IMG/VR virus record: IMGVR_UViG_3300038327_000229
Span: 1-61,677 of that record
DNA from: a virus
DNA: 61,677 nucleotides
Strand: one strand, 5' to 3'
Both the position numbers and the translations under genes were made by a program. How positions within the stretch are numbered: the stretch's first letter is position 1; the number at the start of each line of letters is the position of its first letter. The notes beneath the pieces are model-generated. The model did not search any database. It was not told the origin of the DNA and saw only the letters and a program-made list of their open reading frames with translations. This document shows positions 3,001 through 32,820 of the stretch, in pieces.

Positions 3001-3588
3001 GTTGAAGATTTTGAAGCATTGGAAAACCTTAAGTCCCCCAAAGATGCGCACGTCTCACAGGCTAATTTCTATGCATATGCCCTGAAGCAGCCATACGCAT
3101 TAATTGGGTATGCTGCGAGAAATGATCCTAAAGGTAAAATAAAATATTTTAAAGTAAATACTGATATAAAGCGTGTGAGAGATGATGTTGAAGCCGTAAG
3201 AAGAATGATGGCAGACTTACGACGTCAAGGTTATAACACACAAAACTATTCTGCATATCAAGCAATGAAGGACGCGCGCTCTAGATTCACCCAAAATAAA
3301 TATCAGCAGAATGCTGCAGGCGCAGGTGCAGGGTTACCATCGGGGATGATCCCAGCGCCAGAAGACTATGGAGGGCATTCCGCTATAAAAGGACTAGGCG
3401 ATTATGGTAAATGGATGAAGAAGCTAGGATGGAGGCAAGAGAACAAGACACATCTCACTAATACACAGCAGTTTAAAAGCAAATCTAGGATAAGAGATCA
3501 GGGAAAACACGCAGCGTTGCATAGCAATGATGCGTTAAAATATAACGCACGTATCAGTCACCCTAATGGGTCTAGGCAAATAGCATAG
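1..3588 (+). CDS. Partial giant virion-region protein: coiled coil, DnaQ-like exonuclease signature, PD-(D/E)XK nuclease
   Basis: The frame is open from base 1. The first possible start, GTG at 88, has no ribosome binding site, so the gene probably begins upstream; at least 1195 aa are present. Numbering from the first codon, residues 1-110 are charged and Ala/Gln-rich, likely coiled coil. Around 184-186 lies D-T-E, and around 415-419 lies N-x-x-Y-D; these match motifs I and II of DEDD (DnaQ-type) exonucleases, but a convincing motif III is not seen. A Gly/Ala/Leu-rich hydrophobic helix lies near 847-864. The C-terminal domain is a clear Cas4/RecB-type PD-(D/E)XK nuclease: H955, D987 in GHIDLV, E997-x-K999 in LEIKS, and Q1020-x3-Y1024. 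It heads a run of hydrophobic protein genes just before the terminase. I infer a virion-associated DNA-degrading or DNA-processing protein. The nuclease call is firm, the exonuclease call moderate, the virion location inferred. Confidence 0.8.
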   Translation: MERANKLKAEQDLLTPEEKAAQRASERDLVAEHRERVKRGEALPEIEQLRQHKKRRREAQQAAAQQAAAQQAAGEQVAVQKAAAEKELAKKAAASAKRTATTATAATARQAGSVGASSSSPASVQQASSTRTSSSPASPSSPRVVDNRTPVAELPIVDRQKALRQRLNSLGRGSSSNPLRFLFDTEATDVGFAHRERIINKGKLVKYTGRDGDLGTRSGNKPIIHGQTQSQRAVGTQMLQFYGGTADEIANQTDTIFQRHMELDIPDAIKRDLGKSLSFDLHGRDGEVKNTFNAEQIHRIMTDSSDSLSADDLAARKAMGDPGGPQGKFHITDPKVLKNITASRLTNPTAGMAGVGVNLVNHTLNQVVGRSVFESKYGRPDTASSQKFVQDFLNRMVKLQKDAPEGVRPQIEAWNINYDLIKAAEQVDMYGKDLKIGFQNKMQSAKDVFKALFIGTDAHSADYLIKAVDAADKIKEISFWRLINDNQYNVHSINHEEVAAALENGQTKAQIQDAGIEELRTSKTGVKTKYINRNTALRKLADDVGGQKNRAALADEFYNRIYEGETYSRNEIESHKKGRIGQIVDDAVSMTLKIRESSISRDGNMIEALRRGSNLLASQDGGVDIANRIWRPTAKTSGIMGFGVGKDAEFAEGTVKQMMYVLDNSTGFDGVGGFSQGGSGRTVATGKGGAIGSLIYAKETYMETHSDSQLSNHMRGLFEKIDKASRIGGAAHDASIDTRQMHAMISSGGILDDMGTHGATTDMIEFNGILTDARAAASFEAGVDRWMVNADFAPQGSGASGTSSNILQEIIPEPQTAANAGDFSGRGPLNSVEPLAGRPRGLKGRGGVLAGGILTLAGLALVGNRNGGIKQPGSQYNSIEGMSPSGDPLIHSFGSGNDSFASQAITNLKYGTGYGSNTLRSSMLGYRGDRLRDILLGRSSFDDYTNSSEKGTLVHSIIEAEYLKRDIAQSSEHVVHSPELDVMGHIDLVLNSGVPLEIKSVEDFEALENLKSPKDAHVSQANFYAYALKQPYALIGYAARNDPKGKIKYFKVNTDIKRVRDDVEAVRRMMADLRRQGYNTQNYSAYQAMKDARSRFTQNKYQQNAAGAGAGLPSGMIPAPEDYGGHSAIKGLGDYGKWMKKLGWRQENKTHLTNTQQFKSKSRIRDQGKHAALHSNDALKYNARISHPNGSRQIA
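179..223 (+). repeat. Three tandem 15-bp repeats inside the first gene
   Basis: A 15-base unit encoding Gln-Gln-Ala-Ala-Ala occurs three times in a row, the last copy with a changed final codon. It forms part of the Ala/Gln-rich coiled-coil-like N-terminal region and looks like slippage expansion. Confidence 0.8.
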
Positions 3589-5402: not shown

Positions 5403-6170
5403 ATGCAATATAACCGACCAATAGATTCTCATGGATTCCAATTCATATCAACTGCATCTGACCATGAAAATATTGGTATAGGCAATTTAGTTGCCGACGT
5501 AACTCTGGCAATAACCATGGAGAGTCTTGGCGCCGGGCTCATAGGTAGACAAGGTATGGGCTCAGGGGGTAGGCCTCTGATGGGCATGATTCCTGGGATC
5601 TCGCCAGCAGGCTTTGAGAAGGGCGCCGGAAGATCTCTTCTAGAGTCAATAAATATAAGGGCAGGGACATGGAGGGGTACTCCTGGGTGGGGCCAGGGTG
5701 GTGGAGTACAAGGAGTTGTTACTGGATTTTCCCCGACCCATACTAATGTACAGCGTGTTTCATTAATACCAGGAGTCAGCGTCACTGGAAAGGGTGGTGA
5801 AAAGGCCTTACTTAACGCGTATAACGCAACTGCTGGTAGTCATAGGGGCCTTTGGGATACAATTGCCAGACCTAGAGATATAGCCAAAATGGGCTTTGGC
5901 TTGGGTCTTAAATCCTTATCCTCTGCATGGTTAATAAATGATCTCTTTGGTATGGGTTTTTCTGCTGCAAGTGGAGCGATACAAGGAATGTCTACATACT
6001 CTTATGACAGAAGGAACCAGGAGACGCCCGCGGAACATGACCTTGGTGACGGCTTCGCTCAGACAAGAGCGAGCTTCACACAAAGGCAAACTGCCATGGC
6101 CGCTATCCATAACTCACAAATGAACACCAGAGCAGCAATGGGTAACGAAGCGACGTTCATGCATGCCTGA
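5403..6170 (+). CDS. Gly-rich protein of unknown function, 255 aa
   Basis: No family recognised. The start lies one base after the stop of the previous gene (TAATATG) with only a weak ribosome binding site, so translation is probably coupled. The sequence is very rich in Gly and Met (residues 30-120), with a hydrophobic segment near 185-200. The C-terminus overlaps the start of the terminase gene by 8 bases. It belongs with the two preceding genes by position and composition. A virion or head-associated role is a guess. Confidence 0.55.
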   Translation: MQYNRPIDSHGFQFISTASDHENIGIGNLVADVTLAITMESLGAGLIGRQGMGSGGRPLMGMIPGISPAGFEKGAGRSLLESINIRAGTWRGTPGWGQGGGVQGVVTGFSPTHTNVQRVSLIPGVSVTGKGGEKALLNAYNATAGSHRGLWDTIARPRDIAKMGFGLGLKSLSSAWLINDLFGMGFSAASGAIQGMSTYSYDRRNQETPAEHDLGDGFAQTRASFTQRQTAMAAIHNSQMNTRAAMGNEATFMHA

Positions 6171-16403: not shown

Positions 16404-16429
16404 GCCCGGGGGCTTCCTCGCCCCCGGGC
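16404..16429 (+). terminator. GC-rich hairpin after the major capsid gene
   Basis: A perfect 10-bp inverted repeat of G and C pairs (left arm 16404-16413, loop 16414-16419, right arm 16420-16429). It sits 26 bases after the capsid stop in the only sizeable gap of the head module (16378-16448). The following bases are only moderately T-rich, so it may be a partial terminator, or a 3' end stabiliser for capsid mRNA. Confidence 0.75.
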
Positions 16430-23616: not shown

Positions 23617-26600
23617 GTGGCCAGCGAGATAGGTACAGTACTAGCCACCGGGGCCGTGCTCGGTTCAATGACTACTATATCTCCGCAAGGTGTTGGCCCA
23701 GGTTCTACAGCTACTCAAGCCACTTTTATATATACTGGCTCAGATGATTTTATCCTATTTACACATATACAAGACGAAGGGGAAAGATTACGTCCTGGTG
23801 ATGGTAATCATAGGCTTCAATGGCGTAACGCTGATGGTGGCACTTACGCAACAGTCGATGCAACTGCTGGCGATGAAATACATCTAGTTAATGTAGATGC
23901 ACTTACAAACGCAGGCACAGTTAGTGATGGCAATAGGGCTACTACAGCAGCTGGAGGTGGTGGCACTTATGTAGCAGGGCTTAGACAATTTGATACTGAG
24001 GGAACTCAAGATGTAGCTGCAGAGATCAGAAATACTCATTCCGAGGGTGCTTGGTCTATAGGCATAGACCAAGCGGTAGAGGGTAGAACTTATCAATTCA
24101 GAGTTACTGCAGAAGGTAAGAATGGCAATTGGAACGTAGGCCCATTAGCTATACAATTCCAGATGGCAGCCTCTGCTCCTGCTGGTGTCAACCATCTTGC
24201 TACAGGCACTATCATTGGTGTAGCTGACAGCCAGGGAGTCATTAGTGTTCTTACAGATGTAAGAGGATCGGTAGTTTCCGATAGTGTTATATCCAGTAAT
24301 GCTGGAGTAGTTACAGATGTAATAGGGGCGATTCAGTCAGATGCGGTTGCCTCCAGCGATGTTCAGGTTGCCAGACAGCTAGCTGCTTCCATAGTCACTG
24401 AAGGTATTGCTGCAAGCAATATATCTGTTGTTACAGATCTAAGAGCTTCAATTTCTCTGCCGGCGGTTACAGAAAGCAGCATCTCGGTTATCACCGATCT
24501 CGCTGCTTCAATCTCTGCTACAGGTGTTACCACTAGTAGCCTTAGCGTGGTTACCGATCTTGTCGCAACCACGACCTCCACGAGCGTTACGACCAGCACC
24601 CTCAGTGTGGTTACCGACCTTGTTGCAACCACTACCTCTACTAGCGTCACCACCAGCGCACTCAGTGTGGTCACTGACCTCGTTGCAACCACAACTTCCA
24701 CCAGCGTTACCACTAGCGCACTCAGCGTGGTTACCGATCTCAGAGGCTCGATAGTCACTGAGGGAACCACAGTGAGTGCCACACTGGTAGACACAACTCT
24801 TGTTGCAACCACAACTTCTACCTCTGTCACCACCAGTGCGCTCAGCGTAGTCACCGACCTTCGAGGCTCCATCGTAACTGAGGGAACCACGGTAAGTGCC
24901 ACACTGGTAGTCACTGATCTTATTGCGTCTATTAGTTCTACCTCTGTTGCTGAAAGTAGTATTAGTGTTGTTACTGATCTTGCAGCTGAGCTTATCAGTA
25001 GGACAATAATTTCATCTAACTTCACTAAAGCTATGGACAGGCAACTTACTGGATCTACTATCGGATCTGTGAGTATATCTTCTGCGATAGAAGTTATAAC
25101 ATATGTTGCTGCAACGACAACTTCTACTAGCGTTACCACCAGTGCACTCAGCGTGGTCACCGATCTTAGAGGCTCTATAATTACAGAGGGAACCACAGTA
25201 AGCGCCACATTGGTGGACACGGCCCTCACTGCAACCGTAACCTCTACCTCTGTTACCACTAGCGCACTCAGTGTGGTCACTGACCCCGTTGCGACCACAA
25301 CCTCCACCTCTGTTACCACCAGCGCACTCAGCGTGGTTACCGACCTCAGAGGCTCCATAATCACAGAGGGCACCACAGTGAGTGCCACACTGGTAGACAC
25401 AACTCTTGTCGCAGCTGTTAGTTCTACCAGCGTTACCGCTAGTGCACTCAGCGTGGTCACAGCTCTTACTGCAACTACAACCTCTACCGCTGTTACTACC
25501 AGTGCCCTTAGTGTAGTTACCGACCTGGCTGCCACTGCTTCTGGAGAAGCTACTGCTACTGGCAGCGCTGTTGCCTCCTACTCTTCTGTTGGAGTATCTG
25601 TAGGTACAGCTGTTGCTACATCCATGCTAACTATGGATTACAGCTGTGTAGCTGAGTCTGTAGGAATATGTAATATTTCAGCAGCACTAACAGAATCAGG
25701 AGTAGCAGAGTTTTCTGGATCCGCCATAGGAACTACAGTTACTCAGCTGGCTACAGTCGTAGATTATGTTGTAGTTGCTGATATTACAGGACTGACAGTT
25801 GCTACTTCTGCTGTAACAGCAGATGCTTTCGTCGTTGCCAGTACTATCGGATCTTCTAGTTCTAGCAGTAGTATAAGCGTGGTTACCGACCTCAGAGGTT
25901 CGATAATCACAGAGGGAACCACAGTAAGCGCCACATTAGTGGACACAACTCTTGTCGCATCTGTTAGCTCTACTAGCGTTACCACCAGCGCTCTCAGTGT
26001 GGTCACCGACCTGAGGGGCTCCATAGTCACAGAGGGAACTGCGATAAGTGCCACACTCGTGGATACGGCTCTCACTGCGACTGTTACTTCGACTAGCGTT
26101 GTTACAGGTGTGCTCAACCTCGTCGCTGACTTGAGTGCATCTTCTTCAGGTTTGGCAGTAGTTTCAGCAGCATTACCTACTTCTGAAAGTGTAGGGTCTA
26201 TCAGAGGTACTGCAGTATCTGTTGGTAGCGTTAGCGTTACATACGCTATTGCTGCTTCAATAGTAAGTGTAGCTGTTTCTACTAGTTCTACTAGCGTAGC
26301 GACTTATGTTTCCGGATCTATCTCGAGTGAGTCAGTAGCTACTTCAGAACAGCAGCTAGGTGTAGGATTAGAATTAGCTGTATCAAGTGAGACTGTAGTC
26401 GAGGCCGACACACTCCTGGTTCACGGTGTATCTGCAGCTGCAACGGGAAGTGCAATTAGCACTGCTACTATTTCTACTGTATCAAGTGTTTCCGGAACTG
26501 CTGTTGGAGAATGTACTGTTTCTTCAAGCATGTCTATAGCAGGAGACAAGGTTCTATCTGCAGAGACTGTAGGCTCTAGTGTAACTTCGGCTTCTCTATC

Positions 26601-26997
26601 GCTCAGTAGTGATCTATCTGGACAGATTTCTGGGGAAACTATAACCATAGCTGGGGCAGAGAAAGTTATACTCTTATCTGGATCGGTTTCTTCGGAAGGA
26701 GTTACTTCTGCCAGACTGATAGTTCCCATTGTTGGCAATGTAGTGTCTAGTGCGCTATCCAGCGCAGCAATCTCTCTGGACTTTACTGAAAGCGCTCGTA
26801 TCTTCCTGGATTCTGTTATCAGTTCAAGTCTGGATGTAACGGTTAGGCTGGTTCCTGCACTAAAAGACAGCGTATCCCAAGGTGTTATATCCGACAAAGA
26901 TCCCAGAATATCGGCAACCGACACACAGATATCTAGACCAGCATCTGATAAAATAAGTGGTACGCATGCTAGCGATAATCTATGGGGAGATGGATAA
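23617..26997 (+). CDS. Long repetitive fibre protein, 1126 aa, about 45 repeats of 20 residues
   Basis: GTG start with a strong ribosome binding site (AGGGGAG). Residues 1-195 form a separate N-terminal beta domain ending in an FN3-like strand (TYQFRVTAEGKNGNW). From residue 196 to about 1090 the protein is built of 20-residue units rich in Ser, Thr, Val and Ala. Two unit types alternate in the centre: ATTTSTSVTTSALSVVTDLV and GSIVTEGTTVSATLVDTTLV. The regular spacing of hydrophobic residues suggests a beta-solenoid or beta-helix shaft. The last 40 residues are charged (RPASDKISGTHASDNLWGDG). Likely a virion fibre shaft. Antisense frames over it are open only because of the repeat. Confidence 0.75.
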   Translation: MASEIGTVLATGAVLGSMTTISPQGVGPGSTATQATFIYTGSDDFILFTHIQDEGERLRPGDGNHRLQWRNADGGTYATVDATAGDEIHLVNVDALTNAGTVSDGNRATTAAGGGGTYVAGLRQFDTEGTQDVAAEIRNTHSEGAWSIGIDQAVEGRTYQFRVTAEGKNGNWNVGPLAIQFQMAASAPAGVNHLATGTIIGVADSQGVISVLTDVRGSVVSDSVISSNAGVVTDVIGAIQSDAVASSDVQVARQLAASIVTEGIAASNISVVTDLRASISLPAVTESSISVITDLAASISATGVTTSSLSVVTDLVATTTSTSVTTSTLSVVTDLVATTTSTSVTTSALSVVTDLVATTTSTSVTTSALSVVTDLRGSIVTEGTTVSATLVDTTLVATTTSTSVTTSALSVVTDLRGSIVTEGTTVSATLVVTDLIASISSTSVAESSISVVTDLAAELISRTIISSNFTKAMDRQLTGSTIGSVSISSAIEVITYVAATTTSTSVTTSALSVVTDLRGSIITEGTTVSATLVDTALTATVTSTSVTTSALSVVTDPVATTTSTSVTTSALSVVTDLRGSIITEGTTVSATLVDTTLVAAVSSTSVTASALSVVTALTATTTSTAVTTSALSVVTDLAATASGEATATGSAVASYSSVGVSVGTAVATSMLTMDYSCVAESVGICNISAALTESGVAEFSGSAIGTTVTQLATVVDYVVVADITGLTVATSAVTADAFVVASTIGSSSSSSSISVVTDLRGSIITEGTTVSATLVDTTLVASVSSTSVTTSALSVVTDLRGSIVTEGTAISATLVDTALTATVTSTSVVTGVLNLVADLSASSSGLAVVSAALPTSESVGSIRGTAVSVGSVSVTYAIAASIVSVAVSTSSTSVATYVSGSISSESVATSEQQLGVGLELAVSSETVVEADTLLVHGVSAAATGSAISTATISTVSSVSGTAVGECTVSSSMSIAGDKVLSAETVGSSVTSASLSLSSDLSGQISGETITIAGAEKVILLSGSVSSEGVTSARLIVPIVGNVVSSALSSAAISLDFTESARIFLDSVISSSLDVTVRLVPALKDSVSQGVISDKDPRISATDTQISRPASDKISGTHASDNLWGDG
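24205..26890 (+). repeat. Tandem 60-bp coding repeats in the fibre gene
   Basis: The 20-residue protein units correspond to 60-bp DNA units. Copies are highly similar at DNA level in three blocks (about 24541-24960, 25105-25530 and 25876-26130) and diverged between and around them, which indicates recent duplication or gene conversion in the blocks. Confidence 0.85.
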
Positions 26998-28641: not shown

Positions 28642-30192
28642 ATGGTAAGTGGAATTACTAATAGTGACAGTCTACCAACTGTCAACGTTACTATCAATGA
28701 TTTTGGACTCAGGATTGCCCCGCCTAGTCCTGGACCCAAGTTAACTATCATTGGTGGTTTTAAAGATACTGGCGGATTAATCCCAATGAACGAGCCATTG
28801 CTGATAGATAATATCGGTGTGGCTATGCGTAGTTTGAGGAATTCAGATGGTTCACCATCTGAACTCACTCTTGCGATAGAAGAGGCAATGGGTGCGGGCA
28901 CCAATAGCATTGAAGTAGTAGTAACCGACACCAGTACTGCCACACCATTCAGTGGGGCTGTTAGCGGCACTTACGCCACAGATCTATATAATGCGCTCGC
29001 AACTACTTACAGTAAGCTCCAGCATCATGAAGTAGATATCGTGTATGTCGCAGGAGCATATGCGGACGGATGTTTCACCGGTAATGCAACTAGTACTGGT
29101 GGAGATTTACTTGGTTCGACCACTAGCTTTGTTGCTCAACTCGGAGAGTTTTGCTATCAGCAGACCAAAGAAAGCAATAGCGCATTTGGTGTCATTGGTG
29201 TTACTCCAATAGGACATGTGGCCAAACAGCTCGAATGGAAAGACGCCAGCGCTACCGCTGTCTCAGACTTCACTTCAACTGCAGGTGCCTGGTTCATGAC
29301 GCCTAGTCTTACTCTTGTTAATGAATATGTAAAATATCTTACACATGAGACTGGAGACTTTGCTACATACAGTGGTGTTGCTGAGAGCTACCGTGGTGCA
29401 CCATTCGCTTCCTCTGCCTGGAATGACTATCTCAAAGGATCTGCAGTGAACACTACTGATCCGGCTTTGCCTGATAATAGCTATATCGATCTCATGCGTC
29501 CAAATAACACCGATGGCACCCCTGCTACTGACAACGATGGAAACAAAGTAGATGCTGGTGCATATATCAGTGTGATCGGAGGCGTAGCCAGAGCATTTGG
29601 CGCTGAGGCGAAGAGGTTTGCTGTAGCAAAAGGCGCTGGTACGGTTTCCTATGTAAACAGTAATGGTGCTGCTGCATACGCTGGAATGCTTACTACAACT
29701 CCATCCTACATAGGTGTAACGAATAGATCCCTACCTCCTCTTGCGCAAGCAAGAAGCATTAGTGGGGCTCAAGCCAAGACGCTGCTTCAACATAGGATAG
29801 TCGCGTTACTGCAAAAAACAGGTGGCTATGTAATTACTTCTGGAATAACTGGAGCATTTAATGCTGGAGTCAACTCAAGATCCGATTATACTAGGGTAAC
29901 TACGATAAGAACGACTCAAGCAATGGCCGAAGTAGTGAGGGATGCGGGTGAGGCATTTATTGGTAAACCAATTAGTGGTCCGTTCCTCGCGGCATTAGAA
30001 AGTGCAATAGATACAAATCTTCAAAGAGCGCTAAAGAGAGGTGCGGTAAGGTCTTACGATTTCGCGATATCATCTACTCCAGACCAGCAGGTTCTAGGGG
30101 AAGTGACAATTGACTTGAGTATGGTACCTGCATTCGAATTGGTCACGATTAATACAACGATATCTCTGGCTAAGGGAGAGGGGTTAGGATAA
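28642..30192 (+). CDS. Contractile tail sheath protein
   Basis: 516 aa, preceded by a near-perfect ribosome binding site (GGAGGT). The C-terminal half matches the conserved sheath domain: GGYVITSGITGAF, then SRSDYTRVTTIRTTQAM, VRDAGEAFIGKPISG, SAIDTNLQRALKRGAVRSYDF, and a closing strand VTIDLSMVPAFELVTINT. The N-terminal part is a variable outer domain, with GPKLTIIGGF near the start. This gene shows that the tail is contractile, so the phage is a myovirus. It ends on the tube gene start (TAATG). Confidence 0.92.
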   Translation: MVSGITNSDSLPTVNVTINDFGLRIAPPSPGPKLTIIGGFKDTGGLIPMNEPLLIDNIGVAMRSLRNSDGSPSELTLAIEEAMGAGTNSIEVVVTDTSTATPFSGAVSGTYATDLYNALATTYSKLQHHEVDIVYVAGAYADGCFTGNATSTGGDLLGSTTSFVAQLGEFCYQQTKESNSAFGVIGVTPIGHVAKQLEWKDASATAVSDFTSTAGAWFMTPSLTLVNEYVKYLTHETGDFATYSGVAESYRGAPFASSAWNDYLKGSAVNTTDPALPDNSYIDLMRPNNTDGTPATDNDGNKVDAGAYISVIGGVARAFGAEAKRFAVAKGAGTVSYVNSNGAAAYAGMLTTTPSYIGVTNRSLPPLAQARSISGAQAKTLLQHRIVALLQKTGGYVITSGITGAFNAGVNSRSDYTRVTTIRTTQAMAEVVRDAGEAFIGKPISGPFLAALESAIDTNLQRALKRGAVRSYDFAISSTPDQQVLGEVTIDLSMVPAFELVTINTTISLAKGEGLG

Positions 30193-30845
30193 TGAATAAT
30201 GGATCAGCAGTAACACAAACATACAATTCATTCAGTGGTGTTGACATGATTGTCACATTCGGAAATGTAACTGTAGGAGAAGTTCAAGGAGTTTCCTATA
30301 CGGTTACAAGAGAGAAAGCGCCGCTTTATACAATGGGCTCTGCAAACCCACGTTCTTTCTCTAGGGGCAAGCGAGGAATCGCAGGGTCATTAATCTTCTT
30401 AGTTTTTGATAGATCTGCTCTGTTGGATATTTCCCAAAAGGTTGACCTTAAAGATAATAATGGTAAGGTCATACTAAAAAAGACCGAATTGACTAAAGGT
30501 CAGATGGGCACCCTTGCTACTTCAACTGAGAAGAATAATGTGATAGACGCAGTAACTGGATCAAAATCAGAAACATCTCAGAATAGCCCAAAAGCAGTAT
30601 TGGATTTCATGGGATTGAAAAGGGTAGGCGCAACATATCATGACCAGTTGCCTCCATTCAATATAACCATATCCGCTGCTAATGAGTATGGGCATGTAGC
30701 TAGGATGCAAATTAAGAATGTTGAAATAATGAATGCAGGTAGCGGTATGTCTATTGATGACATAACTACAGATGAAAGCTGTACATTCGTTGCTACGGAA
30801 GTTGATCCTTGGTTTGCGCAGGGGCCCATTGGAGCACTCCTTTAA
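30192..30845 (+). CDS. Tail tube protein
   Basis: 217 aa, directly after the sheath. The tube fold signature is present: VGEVQGVSYTVTREKAPLY, then GSANPRSFSRGKRGIAGSL at about residues 49-67, and a closing strand CTFVATEVDPW. An insertion at 105-145 is polar. Hexameric rings of this protein form the inner tube through which DNA leaves. Two paralogous genes follow downstream. Confidence 0.88.
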   Translation: MNNGSAVTQTYNSFSGVDMIVTFGNVTVGEVQGVSYTVTREKAPLYTMGSANPRSFSRGKRGIAGSLIFLVFDRSALLDISQKVDLKDNNGKVILKKTELTKGQMGTLATSTEKNNVIDAVTGSKSETSQNSPKAVLDFMGLKRVGATYHDQLPPFNITISAANEYGHVARMQIKNVEIMNAGSGMSIDDITTDESCTFVATEVDPWFAQGPIGALL

Positions 30846-30875
30846 TAAATAGTCTCACTTAATACTTAGAATTGA

Positions 30876-30922
30876 GAGGTGGGGGAGAGATTGGTCTATT
30901 CAATCTCTCCCTAATTCTTATG
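30876..30922 (+). promoter_or_regulatory. Hairpin that bridges a distant ribosome binding site to its start codon
   Basis: A strong ribosome binding site (GAGGTG, 30876-30881) lies 38 bases before ATG 30920, too far to act directly. Between them is a perfect 11-bp stem (30883-30893 with 30901-30911) and a 7-base loop. Folding leaves 1 + 8 unpaired bases between the site and the ATG, an ideal spacing. Phage T4 gene 25 uses such a device. It could also act as an attenuator behind the tube gene. Confidence 0.6.
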
Positions 30923-32035
30923 CCAAATGAACCAGCCTGGGACCTACTTGAAGACTGTCACTCATTTCCTAGATGCCGAACTGGCTGGAGTATATCTCCT
31001 GCTGTAGACTATGCAAAGGATATTTATTCACGCCTAGGGGTGATGCGCGACAGTGCGCACAGCGCGATTGGTTCTGCTAATGAATTAAGTCAGATACGTG
31101 ATGGGAAAGATTACCTTGGAAATAGCAGCGCTCCTGAAACATTCTCATATGCCGGATCTGATATCCTATGTACGATGTATGTACCAAGCCACACTTCTGA
31201 GAGTTCAACGGATCCAGGCTTCATAGAAGTTGAAGATCAACTACAGACAATAACAGTTTCTTCTGCAAGAAGCGTTATGCCAGTGAGAAGATTGGGAGAG
31301 ACTAATCCAGCCGCTTACGCTCGTGGATCTAGGACAATAGCTGGATCAATGGTATTTACAACGGGGCTTAAGGATGCATTTGTAAAAATGCTAGCTAAGT
31401 CTTTCAAGGATGGAGAGCCGAGGAACGAGGCTACTCTGTTCGTAGATCAGATACCTAAGTTTAGTATGATATTTGATTGCCATAACGAGCTAGGAGGCGC
31501 GTCAAGTGCAATGCTGGTAAATATTACGTTGACTAATTTTGGTACTACATTTTCCGTAGACGATATCTATACAGAGTCTACTTTTACATATGTAGCTGAG
31601 CAGTATTTCCCAATAACTAATCACGGAGATAGGAAATGGATATCGACCCGCCTATCTAAAATCGTGGGCCAAGTGTTCGAAGAGTCTATTGAATCGCTAA
31701 TGGCAGCGGGGAATAGCGCGCTGAATAGCGCGAGAGAGGAATATTCGAGGCGTCAATTCGACGTAGATAAGTATGACGCACTACATTCTCCTTATAGAGA
31801 GGAGATGGGGCGGGAGGGTGTAAGACAGCGAATAGCGCGGCTCGATTGGGAGGAAGCTTATAGGGAGGAACAGGAGGCAATGAGAGCCTTTCTGGGTGAG
31901 AGCCCCTCACGTCACGGTAGCATAGATCTCAGAGCCTATCAAAGAGACCTCGACAGACGTTGGAGAGGGCTTAGACGTCGGAGGGAACCTGAAGGGCCAC
32001 TGCGGCACTGGTTCCGTAGTTCATCCTACCGTTGA
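30920..32035 (+). CDS. Tail-tube paralogue with charged C-terminal extension (baseplate tube candidate)
   Basis: 371 aa from ATG 30920. The frame continues up to TTG 30872, but that codon has no ribosome binding site of its own and the hairpin explains the ATG. Residues 85-245 repeat the tube fold of the preceding gene: ITVSSARSVMPVRRLGETNP, AYARGSRTIAGSMVF, FSMIFDCHNELGG and VDDIYTESTFTYVAEQ. The last ~110 residues are a different, very charged and Arg-rich tail (DLDRRWRGLRRRREPEG). Tube-fold proteins after the main tube usually start or cap the tube at the baseplate, like T4 gp48 and gp54. That role is inferred. Confidence 0.65.
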   Translation: MPNEPAWDLLEDCHSFPRCRTGWSISPAVDYAKDIYSRLGVMRDSAHSAIGSANELSQIRDGKDYLGNSSAPETFSYAGSDILCTMYVPSHTSESSTDPGFIEVEDQLQTITVSSARSVMPVRRLGETNPAAYARGSRTIAGSMVFTTGLKDAFVKMLAKSFKDGEPRNEATLFVDQIPKFSMIFDCHNELGGASSAMLVNITLTNFGTTFSVDDIYTESTFTYVAEQYFPITNHGDRKWISTRLSKIVGQVFEESIESLMAAGNSALNSAREEYSRRQFDVDKYDALHSPYREEMGREGVRQRIARLDWEEAYREEQEAMRAFLGESPSRHGSIDLRAYQRDLDRRWRGLRRRREPEGPLRHWFRSSSYR

Positions 32036-32121: not shown

Positions 32122-32820
32122 ATGTCAGACAGATACTACACTCCATGTAATGTCGGTATATATATCGGCGGATATAAATTATCCGATGCGTTTAGAGTTG
32201 ACTGGGATGCAAGAGATTCCAAAACACCCCTATACGGTTGGGCAGATGATACCTTTTCTGCAGTTACTAATGGTAGGAAGATAGTTAGTGGAAGACTAGT
32301 TGTAAACTATAAGCATGCAGGATATTTAGCTACTGCAATAGATCTGTTTAACCAAAACATTTATCCGCGAAGAGATGATAGAAAAGTAGTAGATGACTTA
32401 AAAAGATATATGGAGTTAGATACAACAGAGCGGGTAAAGTTTTTAGCGCACATCGCTTCTAAGAATTATGGAAATACCCAGCTATCTGATGCTGCGGGAG
32501 CAAGGGGAGGTTCTATTTCCAGCTTAGCAATAGAAGCATATAAGCAAGAAAGTACATTCGATATACTTATTTCGTATGGTGATATTACAATGGATTCTCA
32601 TATAGAAACTATTATTAAAAATGCATATATAGTTGGCCAATCTCAAGTTATATCTGCTTCTGCTACTGGTGGCGGAGACGTATCTTCTTCTGGGTCTCCT
32701 ATTTATGAGATATATAGCTTTTTTGCCAAAGAAATACTTGAAAATGGTGTTGGGCCACGTAGAATGGACAATGTTCCTCAAAGAGGAGATACACTGAGCA
32801 ATAGTGTCTCAGGTAATTAG
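32122..32820 (+). CDS. Third tail-tube-fold protein
   Basis: 232 aa, with AGGAG before ATG. The N-terminal 75 residues again follow the tube pattern: VGIYIGGYKLSDAFRVDW, KTPLYGWADDTFSAVTNGRK and IVSGRLVVNYKHAGYL. The closing half has FDILISYGDITMDSH. A Ser/Gly linker precedes the C-terminal 40 residues. Probably a tube initiation or baseplate hub tube component. The 86-base gap before it (32036-32121) holds a small imperfect stem-loop (near 32080-32102) and an 18-codon frame without a ribosome binding site. Confidence 0.6.
   Translation: MSDRYYTPCNVGIYIGGYKLSDAFRVDWDARDSKTPLYGWADDTFSAVTNGRKIVSGRLVVNYKHAGYLATAIDLFNQNIYPRRDDRKVVDDLKRYMELDTTERVKFLAHIASKNYGNTQLSDAAGARGGSISSLAIEAYKQESTFDILISYGDITMDSHIETIIKNAYIVGQSQVISASATGGGDVSSSGSPIYEIYSFFAKEILENGVGPRRMDNVPQRGDTLSNSVSGN

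Follow-up and report, generated by a model that had tools for sequence, protein, structure and literature searches.

A hairpin behind the tail-tube gene of a phage family and its possible second use as a ribosome-binding-site bridge in one clade

Behind the tail-tube gene of a large phage family, most of whose members are uncultured, there is nearly always an RNA hairpin. In one clade of that family this hairpin separates a Shine-Dalgarno (SD)-like word from the start codon of the next gene, a predicted tube paralogue. The virus record examined here, a stretch of 61,677 bases (hereafter, the window), belongs to this clade. As an explanation of the whole, we lean, without great confidence, towards a family-wide hairpin that closes the tube mRNA and that in the window's clade would also bridge the SD to the ATG. 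Within the clade itself, a split ribosome-binding site resembling that of T4 gene 25 is favoured, though not proven, because the stem pairs survive and the flank carrying the SD is nearly invariant at a fourfold-site divergence of 33-50%, and because the next branch of the clade repeats the same order.

On the plus strand of the window, a sheath gene (28642-30192) is followed by the tail-tube gene (30192-30845, 217 aa; PHROG 9206, E 1.4e-49, with a homologue annotated as tail tube protein in Bacillus phage KLEB27-3), a gene for a tube-fold paralogue (30920-32035, 371 aa) and a third gene (32122-32820), which has no more than a weak match to the tube family. The 74 nt between the tube stop and the paralogue start hold the SD-like GAGGTG (30876-30881; -12.0 kcal/mol to the anti-SD by stacking energies), a perfect 11-bp hairpin (30883-30911) and an 8-nt T-rich spacer, TAATTCTT (30912-30919). 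The hairpin arms, GGGAGAGATTG (30883-30893) and CAATCTCTCCC (30901-30911), were 100% complementary in an inverted-repeat search of the window and enclose a 7-nt loop (30894-30900); with a G-U pair added at either end, the stem can grow to 13 bp with a 5-nt loop. As an earlier note made from the sequence had stated, GAGGTG ends 38 nt ahead of ATG 30920, and folding of the 29-nt hairpin leaves 1 + 8 = 9 nt by plain count (11 nt by an alternative anchor). The region folds with a z-score of -2.59 (3 of 200 shuffles fold equally well), and in a 161-nt context the pair probabilities of the hairpin are 0.94-1.0. Since a second perfect 11-bp hairpin, with a 4-nt loop, is present at 24049-24074 within the ORF 23617-26997, stem length alone is not decisive, and it is position and conservation, rather than length, that carry weight for the hairpin at 30883-30911. 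No further copies of the element beyond chance were seen within the window, and no Rfam family scored above its gathering score (three matches, E 0.22-0.43, all fell below).

The same note had called the downstream gene a tube paralogue, and the protein data agree. Its product matches the window's tube protein (BLASTP E 3e-12) and PHROG 9206 (E 3e-18), and in an AF2 model with a mean pLDDT of 67.5 the confident core spans approximately residues 80-235; searched against the PDB, this core matches proteins of the tail-tube fold (best E 4.5e-7). Judged by sequence and by this model, it is a tube paralogue with an N-terminal extension of about 75 aa and a C-terminal helical part.

Most genes of the window have an SD where one is expected. 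When 40 window ORFs of at least 80 codons, picked by length and with alternative starts allowed, were surveyed, a near SD preceded the start in 36. The four that lacked one were the ORFs at 6163, 17043 and 20205 and the paralogue; the first three overlap the upstream ORF or begin no more than 10 nt from its stop. No SD was found in the spacer TAATTCTT or nearer to ATG 30920, in keeping with what the note had claimed, and the frequency of strong SD words on the plus strand of the window is about 0.012 per 14 nt. The junction thus shares with a split ribosome-binding site of the T4 gene 25 type an SD beyond functional distance, the lack of a nearer SD and a stable hairpin that leaves 9 nt.

There is a precedent for this geometry, and the T4 case to which the note had appealed is real. 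As described in the review PMC3014915, a hairpin between a distant SD and the AUG cuts the distance from 27 to 11 nt in T4 gene 25, and from 22 to 5 nt in T4 gene 38 (work of Nivinskas 1999 and Malys and Nivinskas 2009, as cited there). The window resembles both in that the SD is too distant from the AUG and an intervening RNA hairpin shortens the gap, and gene 25 moreover in that the gene encodes a tail part. It differs from the two, as that source presents them, in having no detected gene relationship, a longer stem and a hairpin that belongs to a family-wide post-tube class, and it is known here from sequence alone. Worked examples of hairpin-bridged ribosome-binding sites are few in the literature covered, T4 genes 25 and 38 being those encountered, and the present junction adds a candidate from a different phage family. 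In the portions of the open PMC literature on split ribosome-binding sites, T4 gene 25 and tail-tube or phage terminators that were covered, we found no report of a tube-paralogue hairpin junction. Bacillus phage 0305phi8-36, which the record of Acinetobacter phage ME3 names as a homologue of its tube, has hairpin terminators mentioned in PMC2147016, in sections that do not discuss the tube junction.

The clade consists of the window (its contig is identical to L001, L004 and L044, and L044 represents it in all counts), its two closest relatives L045 and L046, and L047, the next branch in the tube tree. All four keep the order SD, hairpin, ATG, with the next start codon 8-12 nt past the hairpin, and the SD and hairpin come in two unrelated sequence versions. 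A scan of DNA with the SD-plus-arm word returned ten viral-contig stretches, three of them on clade contigs. In L045 and L046 all 13 pairs are retained despite four stem substitutions, which amount to one compensatory and two one-sided changes, so that pairing is preserved in 39/39 cells across the three sequences (30882-30894 with 30900-30912). The check for compensatory changes that the note had suggested thus came out in part: the pairs are kept and one change is compensatory, but the covariation score, drawn from three sequences, which is few, was equalled by 165 of 500 shuffles. More telling than stem covariation, as far as sequence comparison can indicate, is the conservation of the 16-nt flank TTAGAATTGAGAGGTG (30866-30881) that ends in GAGGTG; it is identical in the window and L046 and has a single difference in L045. 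By contrast, the tube gene has diverged at its fourfold-degenerate sites by 50% (window-L045), 35% (window-L046) and 33% (L045-L046). The L047 junction has neither its hairpin nor its SD sequence in common with the window, and reads AAGGAGG, a 13-pair hairpin, 9 nt and ATG. The L047 protein opens almost at the conserved tube domain, which leaves hardly any room for a start further 3'. Counting against bridging, the effective SD spacing in the clade would be 10-15 nt, compared with 2-10 nt in relatives whose start codon lies further from the hairpin.

The hairpin itself reaches far beyond the clade. Relatives were collected by several tube-protein scans of IMG/VR, with four more in GTDB genomes; several of the scans each found 427 relatives, of which the best 80 were taken. 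The 321 loci that went in yielded 131 junctions after removal of 170 repeats, six loci with no readable stop, four with no next ORF, two with a gap below 20 nt and eight with weak hairpins, of which at least two (L110 and L140) have a stem that is visible by eye but escaped the script. Within the first set, a folding energy of -15 kcal/mol or lower was reached by 74 of 76 tube junctions compared with 10 of 67 other gaps (35-150 nt), a comparison that a -5 kcal/mol prefilter on the junction rows tilts towards the tube junctions (3 of 84 were removed by it). Hairpin sequences diverge widely across the family while their location stays constant, and many relatives carry a U-tract after the stem. 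The hairpin is also present in KLEB27-3, Moorella phage MTATph1 and ME3, which share with the window the series sheath, tube, hairpin and tube-like or structural gene (with one gene between in MTATph1) but differ from it in that, as read by eye, an SD-like word of the next gene lies 3' of the hairpin, which is the ordinary arrangement. In MTATph1 (L129) the post-tube hairpin is separated from the second tube-like gene by a gene annotated as S-adenosylmethionine decarboxylase (3151-3507), an order that links the hairpin to the tube gene's 3' end. Among the tube junctions, L124 and L177 have no hairpin; in L124 stop and start overlap (TAATG), and in L177 the gap is 15 nt and contains AAGGA.

The window's capsid gene (PHROG major head protein) is likewise followed by a strong, perfect 10-bp hairpin (16404-16429) with an SD-like TAGGT behind it. 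A post-capsid hairpin was seen in 8/8 related records examined, a set that includes one record identical to the window, and each has by eye an SD-like word on the 3' side. From its position, the frequent U-tracts and this capsid parallel, we infer that the hairpin ends or protects the tube mRNA; its general role is probably that of a terminator or mRNA 3' end, with bridging a local second use. Because the hairpin is general behind the tube gene and a normal SD mostly follows it, it cannot have evolved only for bridging a ribosome-binding site. The reading offered in the note consequently holds up for the clade, where 4/4 members keep the order, the SD flank is conserved and stem changes preserve pairing, but not as the hairpin's sole purpose, given a family-wide and often terminator-like element.

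It is conceivable, though we think it the lesser likelihood, that the window's hairpin does no more than partly terminate the tube mRNA or stabilise its 3' end, that GAGGTG is incidental and that the paralogue starts without an SD or by re-initiation after the tube gene. The strong excess of hairpins at tube junctions, the U-tracts of many relatives, the capsid hairpin and the MTATph1 gene order all fit this, as do several junctions that have no SD at all next to a start codon close behind the hairpin. The window hairpin is also the top terminator-like site in the 20 kb scanned and qualifies as a GC-rich stem-loop. Like an intrinsic terminator or attenuator, it lies right behind an abundant structural gene and has a stable GC-rich stem, and in many relatives a T-rich tail. 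It differs from an intrinsic terminator in its weak T-tract (AATTCTTATG; calculated T-tail score 1.79), in the conserved SD word that precedes the stem and in a start codon 8 nt past it. The spacer TAATTCTT has the 5 T in 8 that the scan asks for, yet its T run is broken, and the other clade members have similar T-tracts after the stem. Termination alone would also leave unexplained the near-invariant SD flank of the clade and the AAGGAGG of L047.

One may also ask whether SD words shift to the 5' side wherever the start codon abuts the hairpin. We called junctions tight when the hairpin ends at most 12 nt from the ATG and loose when it ends more than 12 nt away; these cut-offs (12 nt, together with 14 nt and the SD energies) were chosen after the first list had been seen. 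At the same threshold, an SD word is present in the hairpin-ATG spacer in 78 of 99 loose and 0 of 32 tight junctions, the latter being partly built in, as short spacers leave little room for an SD. Immediately 5' of the hairpin, 13 of 32 tight junctions carry an SD word, compared with 11 of 99 loose ones (p 5e-4, relatedness ignored); a strong word (-12 kcal/mol or stronger) is there in 5/32 and 0/99. In the first set the counts were 13/27 vs 4/54 (p 5e-5), but none of five tight junctions among later loci had an SD 5' of the hairpin, and the first-set association was not replicated. Independent pairs on the tube tree gave a median p of 0.625, and with L045 and L046 excluded the observed counts were reached by 7.5%, 6.6% and 1.45% of shuffles at three thresholds. 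We do not use these association statistics as proof of bridging. Furthermore, 11 of the 27 first-set tight junctions have no SD at usable spacing on either side, and therefore a start that abuts a hairpin can do without bridging; in such junctions another mode of start must act. The U content after the stem did not differ between tight and loose junctions of the first set.

On the tube tree, 15 switches between the tight and the loose state are needed, of which at least 10 fall on well-supported branches, and therefore the state switches often. L024, for example, has its SD 3' of the hairpin, whereas its relatives L026 and L028 have it on the 5' side. Relatives with the SD before or after the hairpin could serve as a natural series for how a structured spacer replaces sequence distance.

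Returning to the combined explanation, in which the hairpin closes the tube mRNA and in the clade also bridges, the family-wide hairpin class would form the end of the abundant tail-tube transcript by partial termination, 3' protection or both. On read-through transcripts the folded hairpin would bring GAGGTG near ATG 30920, and a 30S subunit could contact SD and AUG together while the hairpin is looped out, in the manner of T4 genes 25 and 38. Ribosomal use of GAGGTG, read-through and a paralogue output below that of the tube are the steps we infer. Judging from their junctions, a local bridging layer may perhaps also exist in L048, L051, L090, L026 and L028. A more specific version, which we put forward only tentatively, gives one hairpin two jobs: it would end most tube transcripts and, on read-through, bridge the SD to the paralogue AUG, the family having switched repeatedly to and from an SD after the hairpin. 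If true, terminator and ribosome bridge would be the same RNA element at a stoichiometry switch. For gene finding, the candidate junction is a caution that a terminator-like hairpin need not end an expression unit and that the SD actually used may lie on the side of the hairpin away from the start codon.

An unlikely alternative is that the structure represses, with an outer GAGAG/UUCUU pairing that hides SD and start until something opens it. In the minimum-energy fold UGAGAG does pair with UUCUUA, so that the SD is partly paired, a point that also counts against bridging, and the first SD bases have a predicted probability of being unpaired of 0.01-0.16. However, freeing the SD from these weak outer pairs would cost only about 4 kcal/mol, compared with a gain of about 12 from SD-16S rRNA pairing (by stacking values), and the outer pairs vary among the window, L045 and L046. 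When SD and AUG were forced open, an outer helix AGAATT/AATTCT with the SD in a bulge appeared in the folds of the window and L046 and was absent from that of L045; we build no claim on it. Least probable is a start at the in-frame TTG at 30872, which would make the hairpin coding: the frame is open from there, but no SD lies ahead of it and L045, L046 and L047 have no listed in-frame start 5' of the hairpin.

Two further features of the post-tube hairpins may be mentioned. Over 81 junctions the 5' arms are G-rich (450 G, 178 C), with G exceeding C in 63 arms and C exceeding G in 14. In L055 (4628-4675) an SD-like GGAGGTGAT lies within the hairpin's own 5' arm, and, from its sequence, the opened hairpin might itself be a ribosome-binding site.
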